A model generated the notes under the pieces. It was given only the letters and a program-made list of their open reading frames with translations. It was not told the origin of the DNA and ran no database searches. DNA of 64,000 nucleotides. It comes from Flavihumibacter profundi (GTDB taxonomy: Bacteria > Bacteroidota > Bacteroidia > Chitinophagales > Chitinophagaceae). The stretch spans positions 1,798,001-1,862,000 of the forward strand of contig NZ_JAIQXE010000001.1 in the NCBI RefSeq assembly GCF_020076305.1, read 5' to 3'. Shown here one piece after another: positions 4,844-44,048 of the stretch. Made by a program: the position numbers and the translations under genes. Positions within the stretch are counted from its first letter, which is position 1. Each line of letters opens with the position of its first letter.

Positions 4844-6178
4844 TTAAAACTCCAGGTGCCCCCTGATTGCAAAAACATGTACGGGACCACGATCCTTATT
4901 ATATGCCGGATTCTGTACAAACTGGTAATCAGCAGACAGGAAGAAATTGGTAAATAATTTTGCCTGGTAATAGAGTTCAGTGATTGCTTCAGCACCATAA
5001 TTCAGTTTCCCATCACCAATGATAAAACCATAAAGGCCTGCATTTAAAAAATCCTGGTGTTCGTGTGAAATACCATTTACAACTTCTGCAATACCAATAT
5101 GATCATTGGGCCGCTTCCAGCCGGTTCCATTGATATGTAAGCCGGCACTGGCACTATGGTCTATTTCTGTAAATGCCCATGTGGCAGTCTTCCCGTCATT
5201 CCAGCTGGCCTTAAAAAAAGCACCAATGGATTTGCTGATTTCCTGTTCTGCATTTATCCCAAAACCAAACTTTATTCCACCATATACTTTCCATTCTTTC
5301 ACCCCTGTATAAACATCAACACTGGTACTGTCACCAACTTTTATGTCTGTAAGGGTTTTGATGTAAGTGGGTGCTTGTGATGCAGTCCTGAATAATAAAA
5401 ACCGAACCGCTCCCGGCCTTTTTAGTTCCCAGTTCTTCTCGAATTCAAATGTTTCAGAATGGGCTTTTGTTACCTTGTAATCCAGTTCCAGGCCGTTTGC
5501 TTTACGCGGGACAAGTGCCGAAGAAAAACGGATGGCCCACCCTGGTTTCACCAACTCAGCAACCAGGCCCTGGGTGTATCCCCGGGTATCAGCAGGATAA
5601 TCCCATCCTCCGTTGCCCATTAAAGACCAGTTCAGGAATTGCGAACGCGGGTCATGGCTATAGGCATTATTATCAAAATAATCAGACAAGCTGATCTTAC
5701 CCGCAGTAATGGTAATCCGTGAAGTAGGTATACTCTCCGCTACCTGATTATCATCAGATCTAACAAAAGCGTATGCCGAATTTTTCAAGGGGATATACTG
5801 TCGCAGGTAAAATCTTGCGATATACAATTTCGGATCAGCACTTCCAATCCTGAAAGTTTCACCATTGGTAAAGCCTGCAATTCCTCTGGCAGCACTGAGG
5901 CCTGAGCCACCGGCTATTTCAGGGTTAAAATAGGCAGATGCATTTTTCCAAAGTTTTCGCCCGACAAATAAAGTTGTAGTTACTGATAATTTACCGCCCT
6001 CCCTTTCTGATAACAAACTGTTTTCACCAGAATATTTTGCTGAAAAAGACGGGTGCGACTGACTGACGGCTGTCAACTGGAAATGGTAACTCCAGTTACC
6101 CAAAGTATCCTTTGCAGGTTGTGCCATAGCGACTGCAACCACACAAAATAAAGCCGCTAATAAAATTGTCCTTTTCAT
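4844..6178 (-). CDS. Carbohydrate porin, OprB family
   Basis: Outer-membrane beta-barrel protein of about 444 residues. A cleavable signal peptide is visible (MKRTILLAALFCVVAVAMAQ), followed by alternating polar/hydrophobic strands, many aromatic residues and a C-terminus ending in phenylalanine (GHLEF), as usual for barrels. 'NWSLMGNGGWDYPADTRGY', 'FNPEIAGGSGLS' and 'HQDFLNAGLYGFIIGDG' are typical of OprB/carbohydrate-selective porins. An in-frame start 17 codons upstream (6229) exists, but 6178 places the signal peptide at the N-terminus. It lies between the haem lipoprotein and the glucan synthase, all on the same strand, so it may move sugars or glucans across the outer membrane; the substrate is not visible in the sequence. 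Confidence 0.85.
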   Translation of the reverse strand: MKRTILLAALFCVVAVAMAQPAKDTLGNWSYHFQLTAVSQSHPSFSAKYSGENSLLSEREGGKLSVTTTLFVGRKLWKNASAYFNPEIAGGSGLSAARGIAGFTNGETFRIGSADPKLYIARFYLRQYIPLKNSAYAFVRSDDNQVAESIPTSRITITAGKISLSDYFDNNAYSHDPRSQFLNWSLMGNGGWDYPADTRGYTQGLVAELVKPGWAIRFSSALVPRKANGLELDYKVTKAHSETFEFEKNWELKRPGAVRFLLFRTASQAPTYIKTLTDIKVGDSTSVDVYTGVKEWKVYGGIKFGFGINAEQEISKSIGAFFKASWNDGKTATWAFTEIDHSASAGLHINGTGWKRPNDHIGIAEVVNGISHEHQDFLNAGLYGFIIGDGKLNYGAEAITELYYQAKLFTNFFLSADYQFVQNPAYNKDRGPVHVFAIRGHLEF

Positions 6179-6251: not shown

Positions 6252-9200
6252 TTATTTCTTTTTTAACGAAGAGAGGTAATCCAGCAGGTTGGCCAGGTCC
6301 TGGTTGCTCATGTTTTGGTATAGCCCGTCAGTCATCATGGAAGACTTCATTTCCTCCATCGCAACTACTTCATTGGCTTTGAATTTCTTATGCGACCCGC
6401 CGGGGAATTTCACTTCAATATCTGTCTCGGTTTTACTCACGATCAACCCCGAAAACCCTGAACCATCCTTCATTTTGAAAGTCCAGCCTTCATACCCAAA
6501 ACCTATACCTGCAGAAGGATGTACAATTGCTTCCAGTAAACCTTCCCTGGGCAGCTTTGACCCTATTTCTGAAAGGTTAGGGCCAAAATCAAGGCCCATA
6601 CCTGGTACCTTATGACAGGTACCACAATTGTTTGAAAAAACTGTTTTGCCCTTTTCAGGATCAGGAACCAGTCCCTTCAGGTCTTCCATAGTAGGCGCAT
6701 TCCTGGCCAATTTACTTTTACTGTCTTGGGGAAGGTAACCTGCAGCTTCATCCCGAACAGATTTCATCCAGGCTTCATCAACACTGGCTACTACATCCGG
6801 AATAAGTTCTTTAGGCACTTTATGTTGCTTTAGGATTTCCAGCACCCGGTTTTCGCCAGTGCCGCTTTTTCCTATTTTGGAAGCTGCCTGCTTTCTAACA
6901 TCCATTTTATAGCTTTTTGACAAGGCAATGGATTGCAATAAATCCACGGAACGCTTGCTGCCAACGTATCCGAGGGATGCTAATAAAGATCTTGTAGCTA
7001 GGCTGTCTTTCCCCTTAATAGTTTTTATAACCAGGGGCTGTCCATCGAATTGCAATAATAACCCTGCAGCATCCTGCCCTAATGTTTCACTGGAATCAGT
7101 AATCGCCATATGCAGCAAAGTTTTATTCTCGGTCTTAACCGAAAACCTCGATAGCAATTCTATGAACTCGCTGGTACCCTTAACCGAATCAATCACCTGT
7201 TTCAATGCCTTTTGCGCAACGGGTGATTTTTTTACAGTGGCCACATCAAGGGCGTGCAATACCAGTTTATTGAGGGCAACATCCTGCGACTGGTTACCCT
7301 TGATTATATTCAGCAACAAAGCATATTTTGTTGGCCCGCTATTAAAATCGAATGCCCTGAAATACCGCTGCCTCTCTTTGACCGAAACTGTTGGATCGGC
7401 TGCCAGTTTTGCCAGGTATGGAATTGCCTTTTCACTGCGGGCCCGCCAGATAATATCTTTACCTGCAGCTGTGGCAAGCGGATCTTTCACTTTTTCCAGG
7501 TAAGCAACAAGGAACTTATCCCATTGGTTATCTGCGCCAATACCCAATGCTTCGAGGTACCAGCGATCTTTCCCATCATGCGCAATTGCCAGGCTTGTCC
7601 ACCATTCTGCAGCCATTGGCATGGTCTGGTGATACAAGGCAAGAGCAGCTTCACGACGAACAGCAATATCCTGATCTGCAATTAATATGGGCAATACCAA
7701 TTCCAGTTGCTTTATTTCGACCGCAGCCCTGATTGCTGCGATCCGGAAATCAGGATTTTCACTGCCGGCGGCTTCTGCCAGATATCTTTTCAGATCGGCA
7801 CCAGGCATTTTCAATAAAGCCCATAATGCCCGAGCACGCATCCTGGGATTACTATTTTCTTTCCAGCATTTTTCCAGTTCAGGAACTGCCCCCTGGCCCA
7901 TCAGTTGTAAAGCAGAAAAAGCATGGAACCGGACAGAAAGGTTTGGGTTTTGCAAGGCAGTCACCGCACCGGCAGCGGTGGTGAAATCAAGCTTTGGCTG
8001 TTTGTATTTCGCACCTGGTGGCGCAACCCGGTACACCCGGCCACGAACCTGGTCCCCGGCTGCATGCCCACCCACGCCCGGATCATACCAATCCGCTATA
8101 TACAAGGAGCCGTCTGGCGCCACAGAAACATCGGCAGGCCTGAACCAGGGATCTTTATCTCCCTTTAAAATATTCTCTATTGTGGCTGTATACCCTGCAC
8201 CACTTTTCTGCACAAGATATGACCGCACCACATTCGGACCCGCATCGCAATGGATCAGCTGGTTGCGGAATGTTGCCGGCAGCAAATCACCTTCATATAC
8301 TACCATACCCGTGGGTGAACCAGCAAATGTTTGCAATAAATTAGGCACTTCGCCGGGATCATTAAGGTGCCAGTGCCGCAAAGGAATGGAGTCTTCCATA
8401 TTCGTGCGGCTCGATTGCCAGGATGCCCCCGTCATTTCATCAGTATATCCGTAGTTACCGTTGGGCATCACGAAATTGATCCGCGTTCCCCGGTTACCAT
8501 CATCATCGTTATCACTTTGCCAAAGTGCGCCATAGCTATCAACAGCAACTTCATATGGGTTCCTGAAATTATCGCCCAGGCATTCTACCTGGCTGCCATC
8601 GGGATTACACCGGAAAACCATTCCCTGCCTGTATTTCTTCGGACCTATTACATCACCATCCTGGTCCAGCACGTCTTTACCGGATTTATCTTTCAGCGTA
8701 TGCGCTTCATTACCGAAATTGAAGTACAATTTTCCATCCACACCAAAACTGAAAGCATGCGCGCCATGGTCGTGCTGCTCACCACCAATTCCCTGGAAGA
8801 GTATTTCCTTACGGTCGGCTTTGTCATCTCCATTATCGTCATAAAAAGACCATACATAAGGACTTTGTGATACAATCACGCGGTTACCCAAAACGCAAAT
8901 ACCAAGTGGCGCATTGATTTCAGGACCCTGGTAGAATACCTTGGTTGTATCCGCATGCCCATCCCCGTTAGTATCTTCAAGTATGATAATCCGGTCACCA
9001 AGCGGATTTGTTGGATTGCCATTAACAGCAGGCCGGTAATTATACGCTTCTGTTATCCATACCCTGCCTTTTTCATCCACATCCATATTCGTTGGGTTCT
9101 GCAACATGGGTTCTGCCGCAAACGGCAATACTTCAAGTCCTCCAGCCACTGTTAGTCCTTTCAGCGCATTTTCAGGAAGCCGCTTTTGTGCTTCTGACAG

Positions 9201-32482: not shown

Positions 32483-34990
32483 TTAAAATCCCTTCTTTTG
32501 GTTCAATGCAATAATGTTGGCAAGCAGGCGGTATGCGCCGGGAACACCTGCAGGCAATTCCCTGAAAAAAACCATACCCGTATATACAAAATATCCCTTC
32601 CCATAACGGGCCATAATCAGGCTGCCGGAATCTGGATTTTCACCAGTGTCATTCATGGTAAAGATAGTTTCATAATGGCTATCCCAATTGGCCGCATGGT
32701 ATATACTTCTTTCCTGGATCCAGCCTTCAAAATCCTTTTGCGTTATTTTATTTGGGAAATTCATTATGTCATGCCCGGGATTAGTCACACTAACAACAGC
32801 TTTTTCGTCGGTTATTCTTGTACGTGATATGGTGAATGGATAAGGGCCGATTTTAGATTTAACCGGGCCTATCTGGCTGGAGGTATTGTATTGCACAACC
32901 AGGTTCCCGCCCTTTGCGATATAGTCCATAAGTTTATCATAATAATTACTCAGTGACTCTTTCACATTATAGGCACGAACTCCTGTAATAATGGCGTCGA
33001 AACGCTGCAGGTTTGTTGATGCAAGGGCAGCGTCATCAAGGATTTCAACAATATATCCCATTTGTTTAAGGGCCTCTGCAACACCGTCACCTGAACCCGG
33101 AATATACCCAATGCGTTTGCCAACAACTTTAATTTCTTCATTAACCACCTTAATACTGTTGGGAAAGAAATAGTGAACTGTGGGAATATGGTCATACTGG
33201 ATCAGTTTCATGGCATTATTGTACCCTATTGCTTTGCCATCTCCCGGGATTTCTATCCAGGGATAAATCTGTTGTGGTTTTTCTTTCGCAAATAATGAAT
33301 CAAAAGGCAGTGTTATGACCTGCAGGATGTTCTTTGGACGGGCTAACGGGTAGCCCATATTTTTATCCTTAAGGCTGTTCCCGCCTTTCAGTTCAAAACG
33401 GATACTACCTTTAACCGTGTCAAGCTGTGCATAGCTCTTATAAGTTAACTGCAATTCCTGTGGGTGATGAGGCTGAAGGTTATTCAGGACAACCGTAGGC
33501 ATAGCACCTACAACAATGGGGGGCACAGTAAAAACAGGCTGATAAATTTCACCTTTAACCGGATCAGTGAATTTGTATAAAAGCGGATAGTCATCCCTGA
33601 AAGAATATTTGCCAACAGTAAAACTTAGGTGTACATCATTTTTTGGATTTTGTGCAAAACCTATCAGCGCCTGTGATTCCACATTAAAACTCCCGGTATC
33701 CATTTGTTCCCGCAACCAGTAAGGCTGGTCGGCAAGGAAGCTTTCCCGAACGAGGTACTTATAGGTAATGGAATATTGCTGGTTCAGCCTCGTTTCAGGT
33801 GTTAATTGAAAAGCCGTATCCAGGTAGGAAATTTTTACATTATTTACAGGGATATTACTTCTGTTCACAATGCTGAAACTAACCTGCAATGAATCGCCCG
33901 TAACCGCCACCTGCTGTCCTGCTACCGCTTCAAAATATAAACCCAGCGCAGATTTCAACACCTGGTTAATTTCCCTTAGTTTTTGTTCGCGCCAGTAATC
34001 ATCTGTTATCTTTTCGGATACCCTTTGCCGCAATGCAAATAATGCCGGTGCAATAGCTGAAGGGGCCATTGGATTAAATGCAGCGATAATACTATCGATT
34101 GACTGGTTGACAAATCCACCACCCACCCTGTTCCAGTTGGTTTCAATGCCATCCATAAGATCGGTTTGAATAGAGTCTCCGGCTGTTCCTGAAAAATACT
34201 CGAAAGATGACCCTCTTTGCCTTGGAACACCAAACCCCTGGCTCTTATGCTGGCTGCGGCTTTCAGCAGCCAGTTCACCATAACCCTTGCCAAGGAGCGG
34301 GTTATACACACCAACGTCAATTTTATATTGATTTTCGTTCTGGGTATTGAGCCCGCCAAAATTGAAGGTGTTCCAAAGAATGCGTTTTGCCTGCCAGGGT
34401 TTTACAAATGCCAGCTGTTCCGGAAATTGTGCGGGGTCTGCTGCAGCTTTGAATGCTTCAATGGCCAATACTGCCGATGCCGAATGATGGCCGTGCCCGG
34501 CCCTGTTATCCGGAGGAAAGCGGGTAATAATCACATCCGGGCGAAATTTCCGGATAACCCAAACAACGTCACCCAGGATTTTATTTTTATTCCATATCCT
34601 TAAAGCTTCTTCTGTTGATTTGGAGAATCCGAAATCATATGCCCGGCTAAAAAATTGTTCAGCCCCGTCAATTCTCCTTGCAGCGAGCAATTCCTGTGTT
34701 CTGATCAACCCTAAGGATATGCCCTGTTCATCGCCTATCAGGTTTTGTCCACCATCCCCGCGCGTGATAGACAGGTACCCAGTCCTGAATTTTCTTTCCT
34801 TAGACAGGTAAGCCAGTAAGCGGGTATTTTCATCGTCGGGATGCGCCGCAACATATAATACGGATCCCAATACCCTGAGTTTTTGTAAACTCAGCAAAAT
34901 ATCCGAAGAGGAATAGGTTTGCGGTGTTTGTGCCTTAATAACCAGGCCGGCCAACACAAGGCAAAACCCCGAAATCAATCTTTTCATCAC
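32483..34990 (-). CDS. Exported PIG-L family deacetylase/hydrolase
   Basis: 835 residues with a signal peptide (MMKRLISGFCLVLAGLVIKAQ). The PIG-L zinc motif 'YVAAHPDDENTRLLAYLS' lies near residue 46, with 'RFPPDNRAGHGHHSASAVLA' as the second metal-site motif. The family removes acetyl groups from N-acetylglucosamine-type substrates. The C-terminal half has Ig-like and then a glutamine-amidotransferase-like region ('RFDAIITGVRAYNV', 'GGNLVVQYNT'). A second ATG, one codon in, is equally possible. It begins the tight minus-strand series with two small proteins and the symporter. Confidence 0.88.
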   Translation of the reverse strand: MMKRLISGFCLVLAGLVIKAQTPQTYSSSDILLSLQKLRVLGSVLYVAAHPDDENTRLLAYLSKERKFRTGYLSITRGDGGQNLIGDEQGISLGLIRTQELLAARRIDGAEQFFSRAYDFGFSKSTEEALRIWNKNKILGDVVWVIRKFRPDVIITRFPPDNRAGHGHHSASAVLAIEAFKAAADPAQFPEQLAFVKPWQAKRILWNTFNFGGLNTQNENQYKIDVGVYNPLLGKGYGELAAESRSQHKSQGFGVPRQRGSSFEYFSGTAGDSIQTDLMDGIETNWNRVGGGFVNQSIDSIIAAFNPMAPSAIAPALFALRQRVSEKITDDYWREQKLREINQVLKSALGLYFEAVAGQQVAVTGDSLQVSFSIVNRSNIPVNNVKISYLDTAFQLTPETRLNQQYSITYKYLVRESFLADQPYWLREQMDTGSFNVESQALIGFAQNPKNDVHLSFTVGKYSFRDDYPLLYKFTDPVKGEIYQPVFTVPPIVVGAMPTVVLNNLQPHHPQELQLTYKSYAQLDTVKGSIRFELKGGNSLKDKNMGYPLARPKNILQVITLPFDSLFAKEKPQQIYPWIEIPGDGKAIGYNNAMKLIQYDHIPTVHYFFPNSIKVVNEEIKVVGKRIGYIPGSGDGVAEALKQMGYIVEILDDAALASTNLQRFDAIITGVRAYNVKESLSNYYDKLMDYIAKGGNLVVQYNTSSQIGPVKSKIGPYPFTISRTRITDEKAVVSVTNPGHDIMNFPNKITQKDFEGWIQERSIYHAANWDSHYETIFTMNDTGENPDSGSLIMARYGKGYFVYTGMVFFRELPAGVPGAYRLLANIIALNQKKGF

Positions 34991-35008
34991 TATAAAGGTT
35001 TAAACTTT

Positions 35009-35033
35009 ACCCGCCGGGTAATTCCCGCCGGGT
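35009..35033. repeat. REP-like palindrome, copy 1 (variant)
   Basis: ACCCGCCGGGT (35009-35019), AAT, then TCCCGCCGGGT (35023-35033). The second arm keeps the left-arm form instead of the usual ACCCGGCGGGT, so the hairpin is imperfect. It lies between the M14 peptidase stop and the PIG-L start. Confidence 0.85.
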
Positions 35034-35047
35034 GAAATAGAGAGAAC

Positions 35048-37558
35048 TCATTGTCCAACCAGGAAAACCGCATTACTCAGCAACAACTTTCCATTTTCCC
35101 AGAAACTCCTGAAAATAGGATTATCAGCGAAATATACCACTTGCCCCCGGCCAAAATTCTGGGTGCCAATTAATAGTCCGTCTTTTAACTTTTCTTTTAC
35201 TGTACTGCCGGCAAAACCACTAACATAATTATCCTTTTTGATGATGCCTACATTCCAGCCACCATCGTCCATGAATTCATAAATATTAGGATCCTGTTTT
35301 AGGGTATAATAAAATTCCGGATAACCGAAGCCAAGCGGATGAGTATTGTCAAGTTCCAGTTTAAAAATGGAACCGGGCATACTTGTCACCAATTCATCCC
35401 GTTCACGGTTCTCATATTTTTTCAAAACGCTGTAATCTGTTTTTCCTGATTCATCCTTTTTATCTTCATCACGTCGTAATTTAATACCCCAGTCGGCCTT
35501 TGCCATTTGGGCCACTGCATTTTCAATGGCAATTATTTTACCACCGCGACGTACCCAACCCTTCAGTTCATCATTGGCATCTTTCTTTCCCAGAAAATCA
35601 TAATTACCATCTGCAAGGATCAATACATTATAATGACTCATCCCACCCTGAAGAAAGTCATTAGCACTGATAATGGTAATCGGGTATCCTAATTGCTGAT
35701 CAAAGAAATGCCAGATTTCACCCATTCCCAGGGAGGATACATTTTCTCCATACAGCAGTGCGACTTTTGGAGCATTAATGATCCGGACGCGGTCAGAACC
35801 AAAATCAAATCCTTTGTCCACAAATCCCGAACTGAGTGAATAGACGGTTGTCCCAGTCCGTTTAGCGACACTTTCAACAGCCTCAAGCAAAGGCCTTCCT
35901 TCATTGGATGTTTTTGTTACAAGCAAAGTGCCTTTATCAAAATGCTCGGAACCGGTTATAAAGGGTTGCTCCGAATACCTTACCCTGACACCCGCCTGCA
36001 ACAACCCGGATAGGAATTTTGCACTATTCAGTCCATCCCATTTTATCGCATATGCATATGCGTTTTCTGATAACGTTTTTTGTGGCGCTTCAGGTAAACT
36101 ATTTGAATTTGCCGGACTGAAATTCGCCATCCCATAGGTTTTCAATCCATAGGCAAACGGAATGGACCATGCTGTAATATCGTATGTTGCTGAATCGCTG
36201 AGTTTAGATTTCCTTTCAAAAAGCACTTTGATAAGATTACCCTTCGGTTGATTTGCATTGATTACAAGATCGCCAGGTTCAGCTTTAAAAGACTCCTGTT
36301 TACCGTTAAAAAAATTAAGGCCCTGTAAATTTCCTGCATTGGCATATGACCAGTCAATTTCATTCTGGTTCAGCAGCTGCTTCAGCCTTGCAATCCTGTC
36401 CGTACTGTCATTTTTCACCAACCACGATTTGAATTCACCGGCAGGCTTATTGATCGCATTGTTGAAGTAATTGCGGAACTCATGAACAAGTTTTGCAGCG
36501 TTCAGAGAAGTGACTTCTACTGTGCTGATCCCGGTGGTGAAATGATGCATAACCCTGTCCCGAAGAGTTAGCGTATCTCCATCTTCATTAAGGATGCCCA
36601 GCCCCGAACGGATCCCGCCCTGCTCGAAAGTCATGCCTATGGATCCGCTGTATATCGGATAGGTATCCCCATAAGATGGATAAAACAAATCAAAGCGTTG
36701 TTTTGTAAAATACAACCAGCCATTTTCGTCAAAATGACGGGCATTATTTTTACCTACCGTATTTTGGAATTCGCGCTGCCATTTTGTAATCACTTCATGG
36801 TAAGGTTCGGCAGCCGGTGCAAAATAATAGGGTTCATTAAATCCCTGTTCGTGAAAATCAACATGCACCTGTGGAAGCCATTGATTATATTTCTTCACTC
36901 TTGCACGGCTCTCTGCCTGCGATTGCCAGGCCCAGTCGCGATTAAGGTCAAAATTGTAATGGTTGGTCCTGCCGCCTGGCCATGGTTCACGGTGTTCACG
37001 GGCATGTGGTTGCAGGTTGATCCTGTTCCCAATTACAGATGTATACCAATTCACGTAACGGTCACGGCCATCCGGATTCAGGCAGGGGTCTATCAGCACA
37101 ACTGTATTTTTCAACCAGTCGCGGAATCGCTGGTTTGCAGGATTAGCCAACTCGTATAAGGTAAGCATTGCTGCTTCAGAAGAGGAAGTTTCGTTACCGT
37201 GCACATTATAACTCAGCCAAATTATAACAGGCGCAGTTTCAACAGGCACTTGCTTGTCTTTAGCAACATTGGCAAGCCGGAGGTTATTCATTCTGACCTG
37301 TTCTATGTTAGCCAGATTTTCGGGGGAAGTGATAGTTGCCAGTAACAGCGGTCTGCCTTCTGTGGAAGATCCGTATTGTTCTAACTTGACCTGGCCGGGA
37401 ACCTGCTGGGCAACATGCTGGAAATATAGTACAATCCGGTAATGAGGAGTATACCGGGTTCCGACAGGATACCCTAGAAATTGCTCCGGTGACAGCAGCT
37501 GGGCAAAAGAAATCAAACCTGCCAGCACCAATATGGCCATAAAAAAGAATTTTTTCAT
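35048..37558 (-). CDS. Secreted M14-family zinc carboxypeptidase with GATase-like C-terminal domain
   Basis: About 836 residues. A signal peptide (MKKFFFMAILVLAGLISFAQ) starts at 37558; the longer in-frame start at 37594 is less likely. The M14 zinc ligands are visible in 'WLSYNVHGNETSSSEAAMLTLYEL' (HxxE) and in 'QVHVDFHEQGF', with 'DPCLNPDGRDRYVNWY' between them. The C-terminal part (about 480-830) includes 'YPITIISANDFLQGGMSHYNVLILADGNY', resembling the glutamine-amidotransferase-like fold attached to several Bacteroidota M14 proteins. It lies just upstream of the PIG-L gene, with a REP palindrome between. Confidence 0.9.
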   Translation of the reverse strand: MKKFFFMAILVLAGLISFAQLLSPEQFLGYPVGTRYTPHYRIVLYFQHVAQQVPGQVKLEQYGSSTEGRPLLLATITSPENLANIEQVRMNNLRLANVAKDKQVPVETAPVIIWLSYNVHGNETSSSEAAMLTLYELANPANQRFRDWLKNTVVLIDPCLNPDGRDRYVNWYTSVIGNRINLQPHAREHREPWPGGRTNHYNFDLNRDWAWQSQAESRARVKKYNQWLPQVHVDFHEQGFNEPYYFAPAAEPYHEVITKWQREFQNTVGKNNARHFDENGWLYFTKQRFDLFYPSYGDTYPIYSGSIGMTFEQGGIRSGLGILNEDGDTLTLRDRVMHHFTTGISTVEVTSLNAAKLVHEFRNYFNNAINKPAGEFKSWLVKNDSTDRIARLKQLLNQNEIDWSYANAGNLQGLNFFNGKQESFKAEPGDLVINANQPKGNLIKVLFERKSKLSDSATYDITAWSIPFAYGLKTYGMANFSPANSNSLPEAPQKTLSENAYAYAIKWDGLNSAKFLSGLLQAGVRVRYSEQPFITGSEHFDKGTLLVTKTSNEGRPLLEAVESVAKRTGTTVYSLSSGFVDKGFDFGSDRVRIINAPKVALLYGENVSSLGMGEIWHFFDQQLGYPITIISANDFLQGGMSHYNVLILADGNYDFLGKKDANDELKGWVRRGGKIIAIENAVAQMAKADWGIKLRRDEDKKDESGKTDYSVLKKYENRERDELVTSMPGSIFKLELDNTHPLGFGYPEFYYTLKQDPNIYEFMDDGGWNVGIIKKDNYVSGFAGSTVKEKLKDGLLIGTQNFGRGQVVYFADNPIFRSFWENGKLLLSNAVFLVGQ

Positions 37559-37615
37559 CGTATATACAAACAGAATTACTGGTTGAAAAAACAAGCTGTG
37601 AAGCTAATGAATTAT

Positions 37616-37654
37616 GTTCTACACCCGCCGGGTAAAACCCGGCGGGTGTAGAAC
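37616..37654. repeat. REP-like palindrome, copy 2, upstream of the RAYT gene
   Basis: The core arms ACCCGCCGGGT and ACCCGGCGGGT flank an AAA loop. The pairing continues outward without a mismatch to give 18-nt arms, 37616-37633 and 37637-37654; the outer seven bases are GTTCTAC and GTAGAAC. Confidence 0.95.
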
Positions 37655-37725
37655 GATGAATAAACGGTTTGTATTAACGCTATTTCACGCTACTATGAAT
37701 TAACTGGAAATTGGATTTTTACCAC

Positions 37726-38301
37726 ATGGCTTCAAATTATCCCAAAATAAGACCAGGCAGCTTCGCCCATATTTGCAACCGTGCAATAGGCAACGAATTA
37801 CTTTTCAGAAGAAAAGAAGATTATTCTGATTGAATGGCCTGTATTGAAAAATACCTGATTCCCATTGCAGACATTCATGCATTCTGCCTGATGTCAAATC
37901 ATTATCATCTGGTTTTACAGACGCATGAAACAACTACCCATGACCTTCTCTGTAACAGTATAGGCACTTTGCAAAGTACTTATGGCAAGGCTTTCAATGG
38001 GCTATACCAGCGGAAAGGTGGTCTGTTCATGAGCCCGTTCAACCGAATCCCGATTCTTGATGAAGCCCAATTGGCATGGGTTTTCTGGTATGCCCACAGA
38101 AATCCCCTGCACCATGGTATTACCCTTAATTGGGAAGATTGGGAATACTCCTCTTACCACCTGTACATGAGCAGAAATCCAGGCTTTATAAAAACAAAAT
38201 TCTTTATTGATTTATTCGGGGGTATTGATCAAATTAAAATGCATCACCATATGAATGCATATGCATTCCGCCCCGAAATGAAAAAACTTATCCTTGAATA
38301 A
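37726..38301 (+). pseudogene. REP-associated tyrosine transposase (RAYT, IS200-like Y1 family) with in-frame TGA
   Basis: Single-strand transposase of the TnpA_REP type. From ATG 37726 the first 35 codons read 'RPGSFAHICNRAIGNELLFRRKEDYSD' in part, the usual N-terminal strand. TGA (37831-37833) then interrupts the frame. The rest, from the adjacent ATG 37834, holds 155 residues with the HUH motif 'SNHYHLVLQ', a candidate catalytic tyrosine in 'LQSTYGKAF', 'GGLFMSPFN' and 'YAHRNPLHHGI...WEYSSYH'. Spacing from 'DYSD' to 'NHYH' equals that of intact relatives if TGA replaces one aromatic or Trp codon, so a point nonsense change is likely. Re-initiation at TGAATG could still give a shortened protein. 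REP palindromes lie 72 bases before and 5 bases after it. Confidence 0.88.
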
Positions 38302-38305
38302 TTTT

Positions 38306-38330
38306 ACCTGGCGGGTAATACCCGGCGGGT
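38306..38330. repeat. REP-like palindrome, copy 3, downstream of the RAYT gene
   Basis: ACCTGGCGGGT (38306-38316), AAT, ACCCGGCGGGT (38320-38330). The left arm carries two changes from the other copies, so the stem has mismatches. It starts five bases after the RAYT stop codon and precedes the ggt start. Confidence 0.85.
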
Positions 38331-38348
38331 GAAGAATCGTTATTTTTA

Positions 38349-40064
38349 ATGCCTAATCAAATTAGCATGAAATTTTCTTTGACCCTGGTCGCTACTCTTC
38401 AACTTGCACTTTTTTCTGCTGCACAATCAACCATCAACCCTTACCAATACAGCATCAATAAAAACTTCACGGGCAGGAAAGGAGCTGTGGTATCTGCACA
38501 TCCGCTCGCCAGCCAGGTTGGGGTAATGATAATGAAAAAAGGCGGCAACGCAGTTGATGCTGCAATTGCCACACAACTGGCCCTTGCAGTTGTATACCCG
38601 GGTGCAGGCAATATTGGCGGTGGTGGATTCATGGTAATACACTTATCCAACGGGACTAACACCACAATTGATTTCCGGGAGAAAGCACCAATAAAAGGCC
38701 ATCGCGATATGTACCTCGACGCAAACGGAAATCCCAATCTGGATAAAAGCCAGAATGGTCATCTTGCAGTTGGGGTTCCCGGCACCATCGCTGGAATATT
38801 TGCCGCAAAAAAATACAGCAAACTGCCTTTTTCAGACCTGATCCAACCGGCAATTGACCTTGCGGAAAAAGGCTTTATCATTACAGCTGCAGAAGCAGGT
38901 GGACTTAACGAAGACCGGCCAAATTTCATCAAATACAATACCCGCCCGGTTGCATTTGTAAAAGGACAGCCATGGAAAGCCGGTGATACCCTTATCCAGA
39001 AAGACCTGGCACAAACCCTAAAGAGAATTAAGGCAGCAGGCCAGAAAGGGTTTTATGAAGGCGAAACAGCCCGGCTAATCGTGGAGGAAATGCAACGGGG
39101 GAATGGTATAATTGGGTATGAAGATCTGAAGCAATACACTGCAAATGAAAAAAAACCATCACAGTTTTCCTATAAAGGGTATGAAGTCATTACCATGCCT
39201 TTACCAAGCAGCGGCGGGGTATTACTTCCCATGATGATGAAAATGACATCCCGGTTTCCGATAGCCGATTATGGTTTTCATTCCTTAAAAGCAGTACAAT
39301 TGATGACTGAAATTGAAAGGCTTGCATACGCAGACAGGGCAAAATTCCTGGGCGATCCTGATTTCTATAAGGTCCCCGTTAAACAACTTACCAGTGAAAC
39401 TTACATATCAGAAAGATTGCGTTTATACAACCCCGATAGCGCTGGCGACAGTAAAAAGATCCAGGCAGGAGTTGTAAACAAAGAAAGCGAAGAAACCACC
39501 CATTTCAGCATTGTTGACAAAAGCGGTAATGCTGTTTCTGTTACAACAACTCTTAATGGCGGATATGGTTGTTATACAGTTGTTGGTGGTGCCGGTTTTT
39601 TGCTGAATAATGAAATGGATGACTTCAGTATAAAACCAGGCGTACCAAACATGTATGGCGCGATAGGTGGTGAAGCCAATGCCATTGCTCCGGGTAAACG
39701 CATGCTAAGTTCGATGACGCCTACAATTGTACTGAAAAACAAGAAAACATACATTGTTGCAGGCACCCCAGGGGGCACAACAATCACTACGTCGGTTTAC
39801 CAGACACTGCTTAACCTGATAGACTTTAAACTGAGCACTTACGATGCAGTAAACAAACCAAAATTTCATATGCAATGGCTACCAGATGTGGTTTTCATTG
39901 AAAATGACTTTCCTGATGAAATTATTACCGGATTACAGAAAATGGGCTATACAGTAAACAAACGTGAACAAATCGGCAGGACAGATGTGATTAAAATATT
40001 AAATAATGGTACAATTGAAGCAGTTGGCGATAAAAGAGGCGATGACACCGCTGAAGGCTTTTAA
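38349..40064 (+). CDS. ggt: Gamma-glutamyltransferase
   Basis: Periplasmic or secreted enzyme that cleaves glutathione and transfers the gamma-glutamyl group. 571 residues with a signal peptide. 'AVVSAHPLASQVGVMIMKKGGNAVDAAIA' and 'NIGGGGFMVIHLSNGTNTTIDFREKAP' are the large-subunit signatures. 'ESEETTHFSIVDKSGNAVSVTTTLN' holds the self-processing Thr that becomes the small-subunit N-terminus, and 'MTPTIVLKNKKTYIVAGTPGGTTI' is the C-terminal signature. Two in-frame ATGs (38349 and 38367) are possible; the second puts the hydrophobic signal nearer the start. Confidence 0.94.
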   Translation: MPNQISMKFSLTLVATLQLALFSAAQSTINPYQYSINKNFTGRKGAVVSAHPLASQVGVMIMKKGGNAVDAAIATQLALAVVYPGAGNIGGGGFMVIHLSNGTNTTIDFREKAPIKGHRDMYLDANGNPNLDKSQNGHLAVGVPGTIAGIFAAKKYSKLPFSDLIQPAIDLAEKGFIITAAEAGGLNEDRPNFIKYNTRPVAFVKGQPWKAGDTLIQKDLAQTLKRIKAAGQKGFYEGETARLIVEEMQRGNGIIGYEDLKQYTANEKKPSQFSYKGYEVITMPLPSSGGVLLPMMMKMTSRFPIADYGFHSLKAVQLMTEIERLAYADRAKFLGDPDFYKVPVKQLTSETYISERLRLYNPDSAGDSKKIQAGVVNKESEETTHFSIVDKSGNAVSVTTTLNGGYGCYTVVGGAGFLLNNEMDDFSIKPGVPNMYGAIGGEANAIAPGKRMLSSMTPTIVLKNKKTYIVAGTPGGTTITTSVYQTLLNLIDFKLSTYDAVNKPKFHMQWLPDVVFIENDFPDEIITGLQKMGYTVNKREQIGRTDVIKILNNGTIEAVGDKRGDDTAEGF

Positions 40065-40084
40065 TAACATTAAATCCCCAGACC

Positions 40085-40618
40085 ATGTCTTTTGAAAGTT
40101 CTTATATCCGAAGTATCCGGAGCCATTTTTTAGCGTATAAAACGCTTGGAGAAAAAGCTATGGCCCAGCTAGAGGAGTCCGACCTTTTTTACGAGCCGGC
40201 GCCAGGATCAAACAGTATCGCTATCATTGTCCGCCACCTTCATGGCAATATGAAAAGCCGTTTCACCAATTTTATTACCGAAGATGGCGAAAAACCCTGG
40301 CGGCAACGCGAAGAAGAGTTCCAATCACCCGCCGGGTATTACCCGGCGGGTGATTGGGAAGCAGGCTGGGAATGCCTTTTCCAGGCTATCAACTCGCTGG
40401 AACCCGGTCAATTATTACATACCATTACTATCCGGCAGGAGCCCCATTTGGTATTGGATGCCCTTAACCGGCAACTTGCACATTATGCATCGCACGTCGG
40501 CCAAATTGTGTATATCGCAAAAATGATAAAAGGGGAAAAATGGACTTCGGTTTCCATCCCAAAAGGGGGATCAGACCAGTTCAATAAAGAGATGGACCAA
40601 AAATTCAAACCGCACTAG
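40085..40618 (+). CDS. DUF1572 (DinB-superfamily) protein carrying an in-frame REP palindrome
   Basis: 177 residues. 'NSIAIIVRHLHGNMKSRFTNFITEDGEKPWRQREEEF' and 'LNRQLAHYASHVGQIVYIAKMIKGEKW' are typical of DUF1572, a four-helix DinB/YfiT-like fold with histidine metal ligands. Codons 80-90 or so encode 'SPAGYYPAGDW', which is the translation of a REP palindrome (40321-40357) and unlike relatives at that place. The core insert is 27 nt, nine codons, so the frame survives. The insertion falls in a loop between helices, so the product may still fold (inference). It ends in a four-base tail overlap with the PspC gene. Confidence 0.85.
   Translation: MSFESSYIRSIRSHFLAYKTLGEKAMAQLEESDLFYEPAPGSNSIAIIVRHLHGNMKSRFTNFITEDGEKPWRQREEEFQSPAGYYPAGDWEAGWECLFQAINSLEPGQLLHTITIRQEPHLVLDALNRQLAHYASHVGQIVYIAKMIKGEKWTSVSIPKGGSDQFNKEMDQKFKPH
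40321..40357. repeat. REP-like palindrome, copy 4, inside a coding sequence
   Basis: Perfect 17-nt arms (40321-40337 and 40341-40357) around ATT. The inner 12 bases on each side are the REP core (CACCCGCCGGGT / ACCCGGCGGGTG); the outer five (CCAAT / ATTGG) are specific to this site. Confidence 0.95.
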
Positions 40619-40836
40619 AAATTCCTCAGTGGATTACGCTTCCCCTCCATTATATACTGTTTAATATTCATCCAGAAAGCAGTGAAAATGTAAAAAATTA
40701 TGGGGGAACCCATGGTCAACAGAGATACATACATGAAATACCTGCGAATTGTGGCCGGGGCTATGCCCATCTTTTCACCAAGGTAGGAGCAAACGCCAAA
40801 CACGTGCCACTCTATAAAGTGTTTGAAGTTCTTCAT
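40615..40836 (-). CDS. PspC-domain protein
   Basis: A 73-residue inner-membrane protein. '[48 protein letters not shown]' covers the PspC domain, with one hydrophobic span after a short amphipathic segment. In many Bacteroidota, PspC proteins of this size stand alone, without the phage-shock operon, as here. Stop codons of this gene and the convergent DUF1572 gene overlap. Confidence 0.85.
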
Positions 40837-40997
40837 ACTGCCAAATTAGTAATTTTCATCAATTTCACCATCGAAAAGGTGTTAAAGGGATTGCAATTAT
40901 CGGTAAATTCGCGGTTCTGGCTCCCCCATCCCGGGGCTGGGTTTCTTCAGGACCGGGATCAGAAAGGGAAAATATCAAAACTCAAATATTCATAGCT

Positions 40998-43268
40998 ATG
41001 GTTTTCGACCTCGAGATGATTAAAAAAGTGTATGCCAACTTCCCCGGCAGGGTAAATGCCGCCCGTAATGTAGTTGGCCGTCCCCTCACACTGACAGAAA
41101 AAATTTTATACGCCCACCTCTGGCAGGGTAACGCCACCCAGGTTCTTGAAAGAGGAACTAGTTATGTTGACTTCGCACCAGACCGTGTGGCCATGCAGGA
41201 CGCAACAGCCCAGATGGCCCTGCTTCAATTTATGCAGGCGGGCCGCGACAAAGTTGCAGTTCCCTCTACGGTTCACTGCGACCACCTGATAGTGGCTAAA
41301 GACAATAGTAAAGTAGACCTTGAACGTGCCATAAACGATAGCCGTGAAGTATATGATTTCCTGGCCTCTGTTTCCAATAAATATGGTATTGGATTCTGGA
41401 AACCGGGCGCAGGTATTATTCACCAGGTTGTTCTTGAAAATTATGCATTTCCCGGGGGAATGATGATCGGAACAGACTCACACACTGTAAATGCCGGCGG
41501 ACTGGGTATGATCGCCATTGGCGTTGGCGGTGCCGACGCTTGTGATGTAATGAGCGGACTGGCCTGGGAACTGAAAATGCCCAAACTTATCGGTATTAAA
41601 TTAACTGGCAAACTCAGCGGATGGACAGCTCCGAAAGATGTAATCCTTAAAGTAGCCGGCATCCTTACTGTAAAAGGCGGAACCGGCGCTGTAGTTGAAT
41701 ATTTTGGCGAAGGTGCTACCAGCATGAGTTGCACAGGAAAAGGCACCATTTGTAATATGGGTGCTGAAATCGGTGCAACTACCTCAACTTTTGGATATGA
41801 CGAAAGCATGAGCCGTTACCTTAAAGCCACAGGCCGGGAAGAAGTTGCGGCCCTTGCAGATGGTATACGCGAACACCTCACTGCCGACGCAGAAGTGTAC
41901 GCAAATCCGGAAAAATATTTCGACCAGGTAATTGAAATCAACCTGAACGAACTGGAACCACACCTGAACGGGCCGTTCACACCCGACCTGGCAACGCCTC
42001 TGTCAAAAATGAAGGAAGAAGCTGTTAAAAACGGCTGGCCTTTAAAAATAGAAGTGGGATTAATCGGATCCTGCACCAACTCTTCATATGAAGACATCAG
42101 CAGGGCCGTTAGCCTGGCTAAACAGGTTGCCCAAAAAGGATTAACGCTTAAATCCGAATTTCACATTACCCCGGGTTCGGAACAGGTCCGCTATACAATT
42201 GAAAGGGATGGTTTCCTGGAAGTTTTCAATAGCATAGGTGCAAGTGTTTTCGCCAACGCCTGTGGCCCCTGTATTGGTATGTGGGAACGTGTTGGCGCAG
42301 AAAAACAAGAGAAAAACACTATTGTACATTCCTTCAACCGGAACTTCGCAAAACGCGCTGATGGTAACCCCAACACAATGGCTTTTGTAGGATCTCCGGA
42401 ACTGGTTACAGCCCTCGCTATAGCCGGTGACCTCGGATTTAACCCGATTACCGATACCCTGACCAATAATAAAGGGGAGCAGGTTAAATTAGATGCCCCT
42501 ACTGGTTATGAACTTCCTCCAAAAGGATTTTCAGTTGAGGATGCAGGCTACCAGGCCCCGGCTGCTGACGGCAGTAAAGTACAGGTACTGGTTGATCCGG
42601 CTTCAAAAAGATTACAATTGCTTGACCCATTTGCAGCCTGGGAAGGCACTGACCTGAAAGGACTTAAACTACTGATCAAGGCAAAAGGCAAATGTACTAC
42701 TGACCATATTTCAATGGCCGGCCCCTGGTTGAAATTCCGTGGCCACCTCGACAACATTAGTAATAACCTTTTGATTGGCGCGGTGAATTACTTTAATGAA
42801 AAAACAGACTCTGTAAAAAATCAACTTACAGGGGAATATGGTACTGTCCCCAATACCCAGCGTGCTTATAAGGCCGCAGGAATTGGCAGCCTGGTTGTAG
42901 GAGACGAAAACTACGGTGAAGGTTCAAGTCGCGAACACGCAGCGATGGAACCCAGGCACCTTGGTGTTCGGGCAGTTCTCGTTAAAAGCTTTGCGCGTAT
43001 CCATGAAACCAATCTCAAAAAACAAGGTATGCTTGCCCTCACTTTTGCAGATAAGAGTGATTCTGACAAGATCCAGGAAGACGACACTATCGACATAATT
43101 GGTCTGACCAGTTTTACTCCTGGAAAAGCATTGGAGATTGTATTGCACCATAAAGACGGCAGTAACCATACTATATTGGCCAACCATAGCTATAATGAAC
43201 AACAGATTGAATGGTTTAAAGCAGGTGCGGCCCTGAATATTATCAGGAAGCAATTCACAAGCAACTAA
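40998..43268 (+). CDS. Aconitate hydratase (mitochondrial type)
   Basis: TCA-cycle enzyme converting citrate to isocitrate with a [4Fe-4S] cluster. 756 residues, the length of mitochondrial-type aconitases and shorter than AcnA. Cluster cysteines are in '[16 protein letters not shown]' and '[11 protein letters not shown]'. '[15 protein letters not shown]', '[24 protein letters not shown]' and '[22 protein letters not shown]' are also visible. It is a single-gene unit with a strong terminator 22 bases after the stop. Confidence 0.95.
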
Positions 43269-43290
43269 TCAATTCCACATTTTCTAAAAA

Positions 43291-43320
43291 GCCGGCATCT
43301 TCTGATGCCGGCCTTTTTTT
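43291..43320 (+). terminator. Rho-independent terminator of the aconitase gene
   Basis: GCCGGCATC (43291-43299) pairs with GATGCCGGC (43304-43312) around TTCT and is followed by a long T run. The T run forms the outermost part of the next palindrome (copy 5). Confidence 0.9.
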
Positions 43321-43380
43321 TTCCCGTATGGTTTTCACCCGCCGGGTAGTACCCGGCGGGTGAAAACCATACGGGAAAAA
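43318..43380. repeat. REP-like palindrome, copy 5, with 30-nt perfect arms
   Basis: The arms 43318-43347 and 43351-43380 are perfectly complementary around an AGT loop. Only the inner 12 bases on each side are REP core; the outer 18 (TTTTTCCCGTATGGTTTT and its complement) are found nowhere else in the window. It lies directly after the aconitase terminator. Confidence 0.95.
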
Positions 43381-43791
43381 TACCCTTCTATATGGGTGCA
43401 AACACCCACTGATAGACAGAACTAACCATATTAGCTTTAACAGGTCGGGATGCTTCCTGAACAAATTACCATTAAACCATTTCCTTATCCGGGTGATCCC
43501 CACCAGTGAAGAGAAATATCCAGCCAGGTCCAACAGGTATCTGAAACCGACTGAAGGGCCCGCGTTATGGCGGCCCTTTTTTATTATGCTGAAGAATGCG
43601 CATATCCGTCACCGCGATCACATCATTACGGGAAAAACACCCCTTGAAATAGTGGATTCTCCCCTTCACCATCAAAAATTCATCTGCTATTTTTAATGTT
43701 GTAAATCAGGTTCAGTCGGTCATGGTTGTGGTTGTCAAATGACGCCACATCCTTACCGGCTCCCAGAGTGCAAAATCCCCAAAGCTCAGTT
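43381..43791. other. Intergenic stretch without a recognised gene
   Basis: Holds a small hairpin (TGGGTG/CACCCA, about 43393-43408), a T-tract hairpin at 43554-43583, and two stretches with coding-like minus-strand frames but no convincing start: one of about 50 codons above 43381 ('LAGYFSSLVGITRIRKWF') and one of about 40 codons ending at the T-tract hairpin ('MVKGRIHYFKGCFSRND'). They may be gene relics. No tRNA or known RNA was seen. Confidence 0.4.
43554..43583. terminator. Terminator-like hairpin with T tract
   Basis: AAGGGCC (43554-43560) pairs with GGCCCTT (43572-43578) around an 11-nt loop and continues into TTTTATT. It does not follow any annotated gene on the plus strand. Confidence 0.5.
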
Positions 43792-43929
43792 ATGAAACAA
43801 ACACTGGAACTATCTATATTGGTGCTTCCCTGGTTAATGATTATCCTGGCAGGCATGACCATTCTTACCATGATGGTTATCCTCTACCAAAAAAGGCAAA
43901 ACCACCATAAACTGAACCGAAAGGAATGA
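43792..43929 (+). CDS. 45-residue single-span membrane protein
   Basis: Starts MKQTLELSILVLPWL, continues as one hydrophobic helix rich in Met, Leu and Ile ('MIILAGMTILTMMVILY'), and ends with a basic tail (QKRQNHHKLNRKE), giving an N-out/C-in span by the positive-inside rule. The frame is open further upstream to 43726, but ATG 43792 gives the compact product. Not a recognised family; it precedes the two-component cluster on the same strand. Confidence 0.5.
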   Translation: MKQTLELSILVLPWLMIILAGMTILTMMVILYQKRQNHHKLNRKE

Positions 43930-44048
43930 TTTACGGTAGATTAGTTTGCTTACCTTAACAATACAACCAGGGGCATTCCACATTTCCCCTGGTTTCCCTC
44001 CCTCATTTAAATTAACTTCAAATACATCAACCAACCAATCTTCAGGTT

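Follow-up and report, generated by a model that had tools for sequence, protein, structure and literature searches.

A stretch of 64,000 nucleotides from Flavihumibacter profundi (contig NZ_JAIQXE010000001.1, positions 1,798,001 to 1,862,000; hereafter the window) carries five closely similar short palindromes in the neighborhood of a gene that resembles the REP-associated tyrosine transposases (RAYTs), REP standing for repetitive extragenic palindromic sequence. The locus raises two questions: whether palindromes and gene form a REP/RAYT system in a member of the Bacteroidota, as a sequence-only reading of the window had proposed, and what such a RAYT does to its palindromes. Comparisons were made across 15 genomes of the genus (G000, F. 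profundi itself, to G014) and 24 genomes from outside it, with individual sites and gene loci denoted by L numbers. The model we favor, to which we give a probability of roughly 55% as a whole, is a Bacteroidota-type REP/RAYT system in which the RAYT would act in trans on miniature versions of the hairpin-forming REP doublets called REPINs, the cores of which would be rewritten in place.

The link between gene and palindromes is almost certain. It is supported because palindromes of one plan lie on both sides of the RAYT in congeners and because copy number tracks the RAYT orthologue. Orthologues with 47–59% identity to the window's gene were found in G003, G004, G008, G009, G011, G012 and G014, and in all eight genomes, F. 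profundi included, the RAYT lies between an M14 peptidase gene and a gamma-glutamyltransferase (GGT) gene and is bracketed by that genome's own repeat family. The bracketing cores are ACCCG[T/A]CGGGT in G003, G008, G011 and G012, ACCCGACCGGT in G009 and G014, and ACCCGTCCGGT in G004. Counted with the common pattern ACCSGNCSGGTNNNACCSGNCSGGT, the palindromes number 42 in G000 (classed as RAYT-bearing despite its interrupted gene), 95 in G003, 67 in G004, 50 in G008, 82 in G009, 46 in G011, 130 in G012 and 144 in G014; in genomes without an orthologue there are 0 in G001, 3 in G002, 18 in G005, 5 in G006, 0 in G007, 0 in G010 and 1 in G013. The difference between the eight RAYT-bearing and the seven RAYT-less genomes is significant (one-sided Mann-Whitney test, p = 0.0007, not corrected for kinship), genome completeness being 75% for G011 and 55% for G006. 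The RAYT-less or truncated side is also the lower one in all four sister contrasts drawn on a tree of four proteins: 1 in G013 versus 42 in G000, 18 in G005 versus 67 in G004, 3 in G002 versus 144 in G014, and 0 in G010 versus 95 in G003 and 46 in G011. The palindromes are therefore not equally common in relatives lacking the gene (42–144 copies versus 0–18). Among the RAYT-less genomes, the only RAYT of G001, G002 and G007 is a more distant one, G013 has a remnant as well as a distant RAYT, and a protein query found no RAYT in G005, G006 or G010. No match to the common pattern was obtained in the 24 genomes outside the genus, and its reversed control gave none in all 39. A repeat akin to the Rickettsia palindromic elements (RPE), spreading without a transposase, was rejected as an explanation because the palindromes bracket the RAYT at a fixed locus and track its presence.

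The RAYT gene of the window spans 37726–38301 on the forward strand, and palindrome copies at 37623 and 38306 do bracket it, as had been described; its frame, however, holds an in-frame TGA (37831–37833). The open part downstream (37834–38301, 155 amino acids) retains the HYH motif and the candidate tyrosine, and since an ATG directly follows the stop (window 37831–37836), this part could be restarted. Residues N58-H59-Y60-H61 and Y122 are invariant in six of six aligned RAYT sequences, the window fragment included; going by the motif of this family, the HuH Y1 transposases, Y122 is presumably the catalytic tyrosine. The NCBIfam profile NF047646 (REP_Tyr_transpos) matches all six at E ≤ 0.001, with bit scores of 41.4 for the window and 53.3 for G012 against a curated cut-off of 80, whereas Pfam Y1_Tnp reaches E ≤ 0.001 in three of the six and only E = 0.075 for the window fragment. 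Run over the whole F. profundi genome, the Y1_Tnp profile gave no match at E ≤ 0.001, and since it missed the window's gene, RAYTs were searched for by protein query. A structure model of the F. solisilvae orthologue (L252; mean pLDDT, the predicted local distance difference test score, 87.6) found as its best match in the Protein Data Bank (PDB) 4er8_A, a RAYT in complex with a REP hairpin (E = 1.3e-6, TMq 0.62), followed by the TnpA of IS608. Searching the PDB by sequence yielded chance matches only, and PHROGs gave no match. In its own genome the window RAYT matches nothing except itself. An IS200/IS605 insertion sequence copying its own transposase was ruled out on the grounds of this single match and of the single locus shared by eight congeners.

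The genus-wide position of the gene is fixed on the left by the M14-type peptidase gene (35048–37594, reverse strand) and on the right by the gamma-glutamyltransferase-like gene (38349–40064, forward strand), the latter named by eye. Genomes lacking an intact orthologue show several states of the gap between these two genes. G013 retains a truncated RAYT and one palindrome unit, and all that remains in G005 is a palindrome-like scar whose symmetric arms, ggaaaacttcccttc/gaagggaagttttcc, are 15 nt long (L146, about 6067–6120); in G001, G002, G007 and G010 the two genes are adjacent, with no palindrome by the rule used. A four-protein tree served as the species tree, and the RAYT tree agrees with it for G004/G009/G014 and for G003/G011.

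Within the window, the 25-nt core ACCCGCCGGGTNNNACCCGGCGGGT has five matches at up to three mismatches where none is expected (100 dinucleotide-preserving shuffles). All five copies reported by the sequence-only reading are present within 8.4 kb, with the 3-nt loops AAT, AAA, AAT, ATT and AGT that it gave; the correction needed is that only three, at 37623, 40327 and 43337, are exact, the other two having two mismatches each. As it also claimed, no more than a half copy occurs elsewhere in the window, namely one lone 9-nt half unit at 6396, which is contig position 1804396. Copy 1 (35009–35033) lies between a PIG-L-type gene and the M14 peptidase gene, and its second unit, TCCCGCCGGGT, is not the exact inverse of the first. 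G004, G009 and G014 also have a palindrome in this gap, each with its own core. In G005 the interval from the PIG-L-type gene (to 3473) to the M14 gene (from 3521; L146) holds another palindrome, ATCCGCCAAGGCGGAT, with flanks almost identical to those of the REP in G004 and G009; similar GGCGGA palindromes are present at further REP sites in G005 and in G009. Copy 2 (37616–37654, core 37623–37647) has 7-nt locus-specific arms and forms the upstream bracket of the RAYT; copy 3 (38306–38330), with ACCTGGCGGGT as its first unit, forms the downstream one. Copy 4 (40321–40357, core 40327–40351) has 6-nt arms and lies in frame inside a DUF1572/DinB-like gene, where it encodes the peptide SPAGYYPAG, and copy 5 (43318–43380, core 43337–43361), downstream of an aconitase gene, has 19-nt arms. 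Folded as single-stranded DNA with DNA parameters, the three exact, armed copies give hairpins of -23.5, -23.0 and -39.5 kcal/mol.

The clustering noted around the RAYT holds for the window only. Genome-wide (4.87 Mb in six contigs, analyzed by pattern search and on single stretches), 24 exact copies are spread over four contigs, so that the family is not confined to the 8-kb cluster and this cluster is not special. There are 41 matches of the form ACCCGSCGGGTNNNACCCGSCGGGT and 65 two-unit matches to it at up to three mismatches, the latter count including overlapping units of longer arrays; the reversed control was zero for all three counts. The core is largely private to this genome, as 3 of 99 genomes searched match it: G000 with 41 matches, G014 with 3 and G013 with 1.

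The basic unit is an 11-mer, ACCCG-S-CGGGT, which is itself near-palindromic, and the plan of the element is one such unit, a 3-nt spacer and the inverse unit. Arrays have a period of 14 nt and mostly two, sometimes three or four, units. In the wide sense these are REPs: short, dispersed, hairpin-forming palindromes in many copies, tied to a RAYT. The canonical GT[AG]G at the 5' side of the hairpin foot is absent by base counts over 47 elements of F. profundi (those in stretches around the matches listed), which instead have C or T at position -1 and mostly T at -2 and -3, symmetrically on both sides. With two inverted 11-nt units, a 3-nt spacer and single-strand hairpin folds, the element is by its build a miniature REPIN without the GT[AG]G guide, the doublet being the putative mobile unit. 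By a crude open-reading-frame rule 29 copies of F. profundi are intergenic (10 between divergent, 4 between convergent and 15 between tandem genes) and nine are inside genes. In-gene copies at L013, L018, L037 and window position 40327 add peptides such as SPAGYYPAG, TRRV and PAG repeats, which fall in loops of helicase, nitrilase-like (both named by eye) and DUF1572 proteins.

What the RAYT might do to these elements is best approached through sites that are shared between species. When the nine in-gene sites of F. profundi were compared with their orthologues, G012 had a copy at the same place in six (L007, L013, L018, L019, L033 and window 40327), and G008 had one at L013. At these shared in-gene sites the G012 and G008 copies always carry their own core; at 40327, G013 has a remnant. 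The number of units is kept at L007 (four in both genomes) and at L013 (three in all three), and the four-unit array at L007 shows mirrored changes in both arms. Of 32 intergenic sites of F. profundi, 30 could be placed in G012, and seven of these have a copy of G012's own type no more than 15 nt from where it was predicted (up to five mismatches; six are perfect). With the same mismatch limit and distance, G013 has remnants at 10 of the 32. When positions were drawn at random 2000 times from these stretches, the mean was 0.12, with a maximum of 2 for G012 and 3 for G013. In relatives without the RAYT, copies are decayed or missing at many shared sites.

A finer comparison is offered by G004, its sister G005, which has lost the RAYT (91.7% identity around the locus), and G009, in which the RAYT is present (82.5%). 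The first 20 of the 67 G004 matches were sampled, and their flanks could be paired at 17 sites in G009 and 19 in G005; L243 and L249, without clear pairing, were counted as misses. Two core types, T and A, are distinguished here. At ten sampled sites G009 has an A-type pair where G004 is T-type at nine and A-type at one (L233), and A-type arrays, some of them decayed, occur in G005 at L233, L235, L239, L240 and L248. In total, a T-type core in G004 faces an A-type core in a relative between alignable flanks at 10 of the 20 sites, nine times in G009 and once in G005 (L248). The flanks of these sites were thus retained while the core of the family changed. L235 and L240 (three units in all three genomes) and L248 also retain their number of units. 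L237, L241, L245 and L246 have an A-type pair in G009 and none in G005, while L236, L242, L250 and L251 hold another palindrome or a mixture in G009. Among the 50 G004 matches listed, 48 cores are T-type, one is A-type and one is a hybrid; in G005, 15 of 18 cores are A-type. The single T/A hybrid, at L239, hints at stepwise conversion through half-converted cores.

A further trait of the F. profundi elements is symmetry beyond the repeat itself. In the 47 elements the palindrome is prolonged into unique flank by 3.74 nt on average, compared with 1.39 (standard deviation 0.19, maximum 2.23) when right flanks were permuted 2000 times, and 15 elements are prolonged by at least 5 nt where 1.5 are expected (maximum 7). 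The effect is also present in 31 elements of G012 (3.39 versus 2.35, maximum 3.06). At L033 the right arm AAAGTTGG of F. profundi is nearly common to G013 and the left arm CCAACTTT occurs in F. profundi only, as though the right arm had been copied to the left; in G012 the arms at this site are again symmetric but of different sequence, ACCTTC/GAAGGT. Flank symmetry as a rule for the whole genus was dropped, since G004 and G005 are not significant (the samples from G008, G009 and G014, with four to five elements, are too small).

In the model we propose, the RAYT gene would stay at one chromosomal place and act in trans on the dispersed palindromes. A working RAYT would cut resident palindromes in their single-stranded hairpin form, after which their core would be copied anew, the donor being, we infer, another copy of the family. 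A new core variant could in this way overwrite the old one at existing sites and produce a uniform, species-specific core. Hairpin-primed copying that ran past the hairpin foot, a step suggested by the arms, would copy one flank onto the other and leave locus-specific arms, and loss of the RAYT would let palindromes decay or be deleted. That cores are overwritten in place is likely; that it is the RAYT which overwrites them, as its pattern of presence and loss suggests, has about even odds. The idea that the RAYT mobilizes the palindromes survives as to the REP/RAYT link, but simple moves to new places leave species-specific cores at orthologous sites unexplained. More tentatively, and with the odds somewhat against it, the RAYT might be a genome-wide copy editor that mainly rewrites resident cores from a template, unit by unit, rather than moving REPs: positions and outer flanks would stay, 40–140 palindromes would change in concert, and the same reaction would copy flank onto flank.

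The strongest competing explanation is spread and decay with recurrent targeting, in which new variants insert anew while old ones decay (the "orthoswitch", as excerpts of PMC3686654 describe it) and shared sites are hairpin-prone or palindromic places that were hit repeatedly. We consider it unlikely, and several observations that weigh against rewriting in place are given here with it. At L018 the G000 and G012 copies stand in different reading phases and are possibly independent, as recurrent targeting would have it, and unit number differs between G004 and G009 at L232, L237, L238, L241 and L246. Neither G005 nor G009 has a copy at L234 or L244, which hence are gains of G004. The empty L244 site is a palindrome, TAAGCTTA, with the G004 insertion at its center, which speaks for another route to symmetry, insertion at the center of a short palindrome; flank symmetry in general could mark insertion into palindromic targets. 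Moreover, 23 of the 30 intergenic sites of F. profundi have no nearby copy in G012, and at L022 and L026 the F. profundi copy stands where the orthologues have a stretch just as long, and this lack of net length change is not explained by simple insertion. The RAYT tree pairs G000 with G012, albeit with low support (0.67), where the species tree places G013 as the sister of G000. Flank symmetry is within chance in G004 despite its intact RAYT (1.91 versus 1.56, maximum 2.43) as well as in G005 (1.80 versus 1.48, maximum 2.87). On the other hand, recurrent targeting is hard to reconcile with T-type and A-type cores between the same flanks at half of the sampled sites, with three units at L235 and L240 in all three genomes, or with the predominance of T-type among the listed G004 copies, which leaves few old copies to decay. 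The arms at L033, different in G000 and G012 yet symmetric in each, are better fitted by one-arm copying. The orthoswitch expectation that old REPs stay and decay fits the RAYT-less G013 and G005, not the RAYT-bearing G004.

The copies could also be held uniform without the RAYT, by host recombination or replication template switching between dispersed palindromes and, within a locus, by repair of one arm from the other, the RAYT only adding copies. Quasipalindrome correction would indeed carry symmetry into unique flanks, and the mirrored changes in both arms of the L007 array are of the kind expected. We nevertheless regard this as improbable: G013 and G005, without an intact RAYT, show remnants, missing copies or old-type cores at the sites shared with other species, and homology of 25–39 nt is short for ordinary recombination. 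A selected function as terminators, RNA stabilizers or protein-binding sites, with the core following the specificity of a host protein, is very improbable, for although the hairpins are strong (-23 to -39.5 kcal/mol) and many F. profundi copies lie near gene ends, copy numbers follow the RAYT, divergent and tandem gene pairs predominate over convergent ones with nine copies inside genes, Rfam has no match in 34500–44000, and the terminator idea had to be dropped once only one of the five window copies scored as terminator-like (13 in the region versus 10.3, standard deviation 3.4, in shuffles).

If in-place rewriting is true, it would provide a mechanism by which short dispersed repeats can evolve in concert even though they barely reach the length that ordinary recombination needs, as well as a direct laboratory test of RAYT function. 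The genus offers repeated RAYT losses beside RAYT-bearing sisters, and the pair G004/G005 allows old and new cores to be compared site by site.

The idea that nested palindromes are a general plan also beyond the genus holds only in part. The comparison covered 22 other RAYT loci, namely L257 and 21 from the protein query, which include second RAYTs of congeners. The rule used finds a palindrome at 13 of them, with two or more alike at seven, and none at nine; when 17 single units were tested for self-complementarity, five, those of G000 and G012 included, gave p < 0.05. Beside the outside-genus RAYTs L048, L049, L050, L052, L057, L063 and L066 there are at least two alike inverted pairs with a short spacer, for example AAACCTGTGAGGTTT-TTG-AAACCTCACAGGTTT. 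Within the genus, a second, distant RAYT type stands beside palindromes based on TGTCTGACACC (L065:2065–2113 in G012 and L067:1947–1973 in G013), and similar GTCTGAC palindromes occur near orthologues of F. profundi sites in G012 (L178, L198).

A Bacteroidota REP/RAYT system is not new in itself, since excerpts of PMC6006769, by Quentin and colleagues, already describe Bacteroidetes RAYTs with atypical REPs. In the open-license literature searched we found no report of these repeats in Flavihumibacter or of REP cores being replaced in place at orthologous sites, nor of the miniature build, shared sites with species-specific cores or locus-specific arms, guide-less Bacteroidetes REPs being known. 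The closest relative appears to be TnpAREP subclass 2.6 (RAYT group 5), which according to those excerpts is found mostly in Bacteroidetes and has the RAYT beside atypical, guide-less structures with copies elsewhere in the genome. The likeness that makes this subclass a candidate is one of phylum and repeat description (a Bacteroidota RAYT, no GT[AG]G guide, atypical repeats); the 11-nt unit, 14-nt period, species-specific cores, shared sites and flank symmetry described here go beyond the portion of its main text covered. With the REPINs of Pseudomonas, as presented in part of PMC3116915, the present elements share the two inverted units with a spacer, the capacity for one long or two small hairpins and a single RAYT in trans, but they have no GTAG-like guide at the foot and a core of 25 nt, compared with the 71 bp that separate the starts of the invariant 16-mers of a GI doublet. 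Some REPs in the available text of PMC3733652 likewise form dimers inside longer palindromes or lie in frame within genes; their outer palindromes follow the family consensus, whereas here the outer arms are locus-specific. Finally, in the orthogroups of pseudomonads and stenotrophomonads, the excerpts of PMC3686654 report that the REP class beside syntenic orthologous RAYTs differs between related strains, just as in Flavihumibacter, and predict for fluorescent pseudomonads and stenotrophomonads that REPs decay after RAYT loss. There, an orthoswitch leaves the old REPs to decay, while here the new core occupies the old sites, with the same flanks around it.

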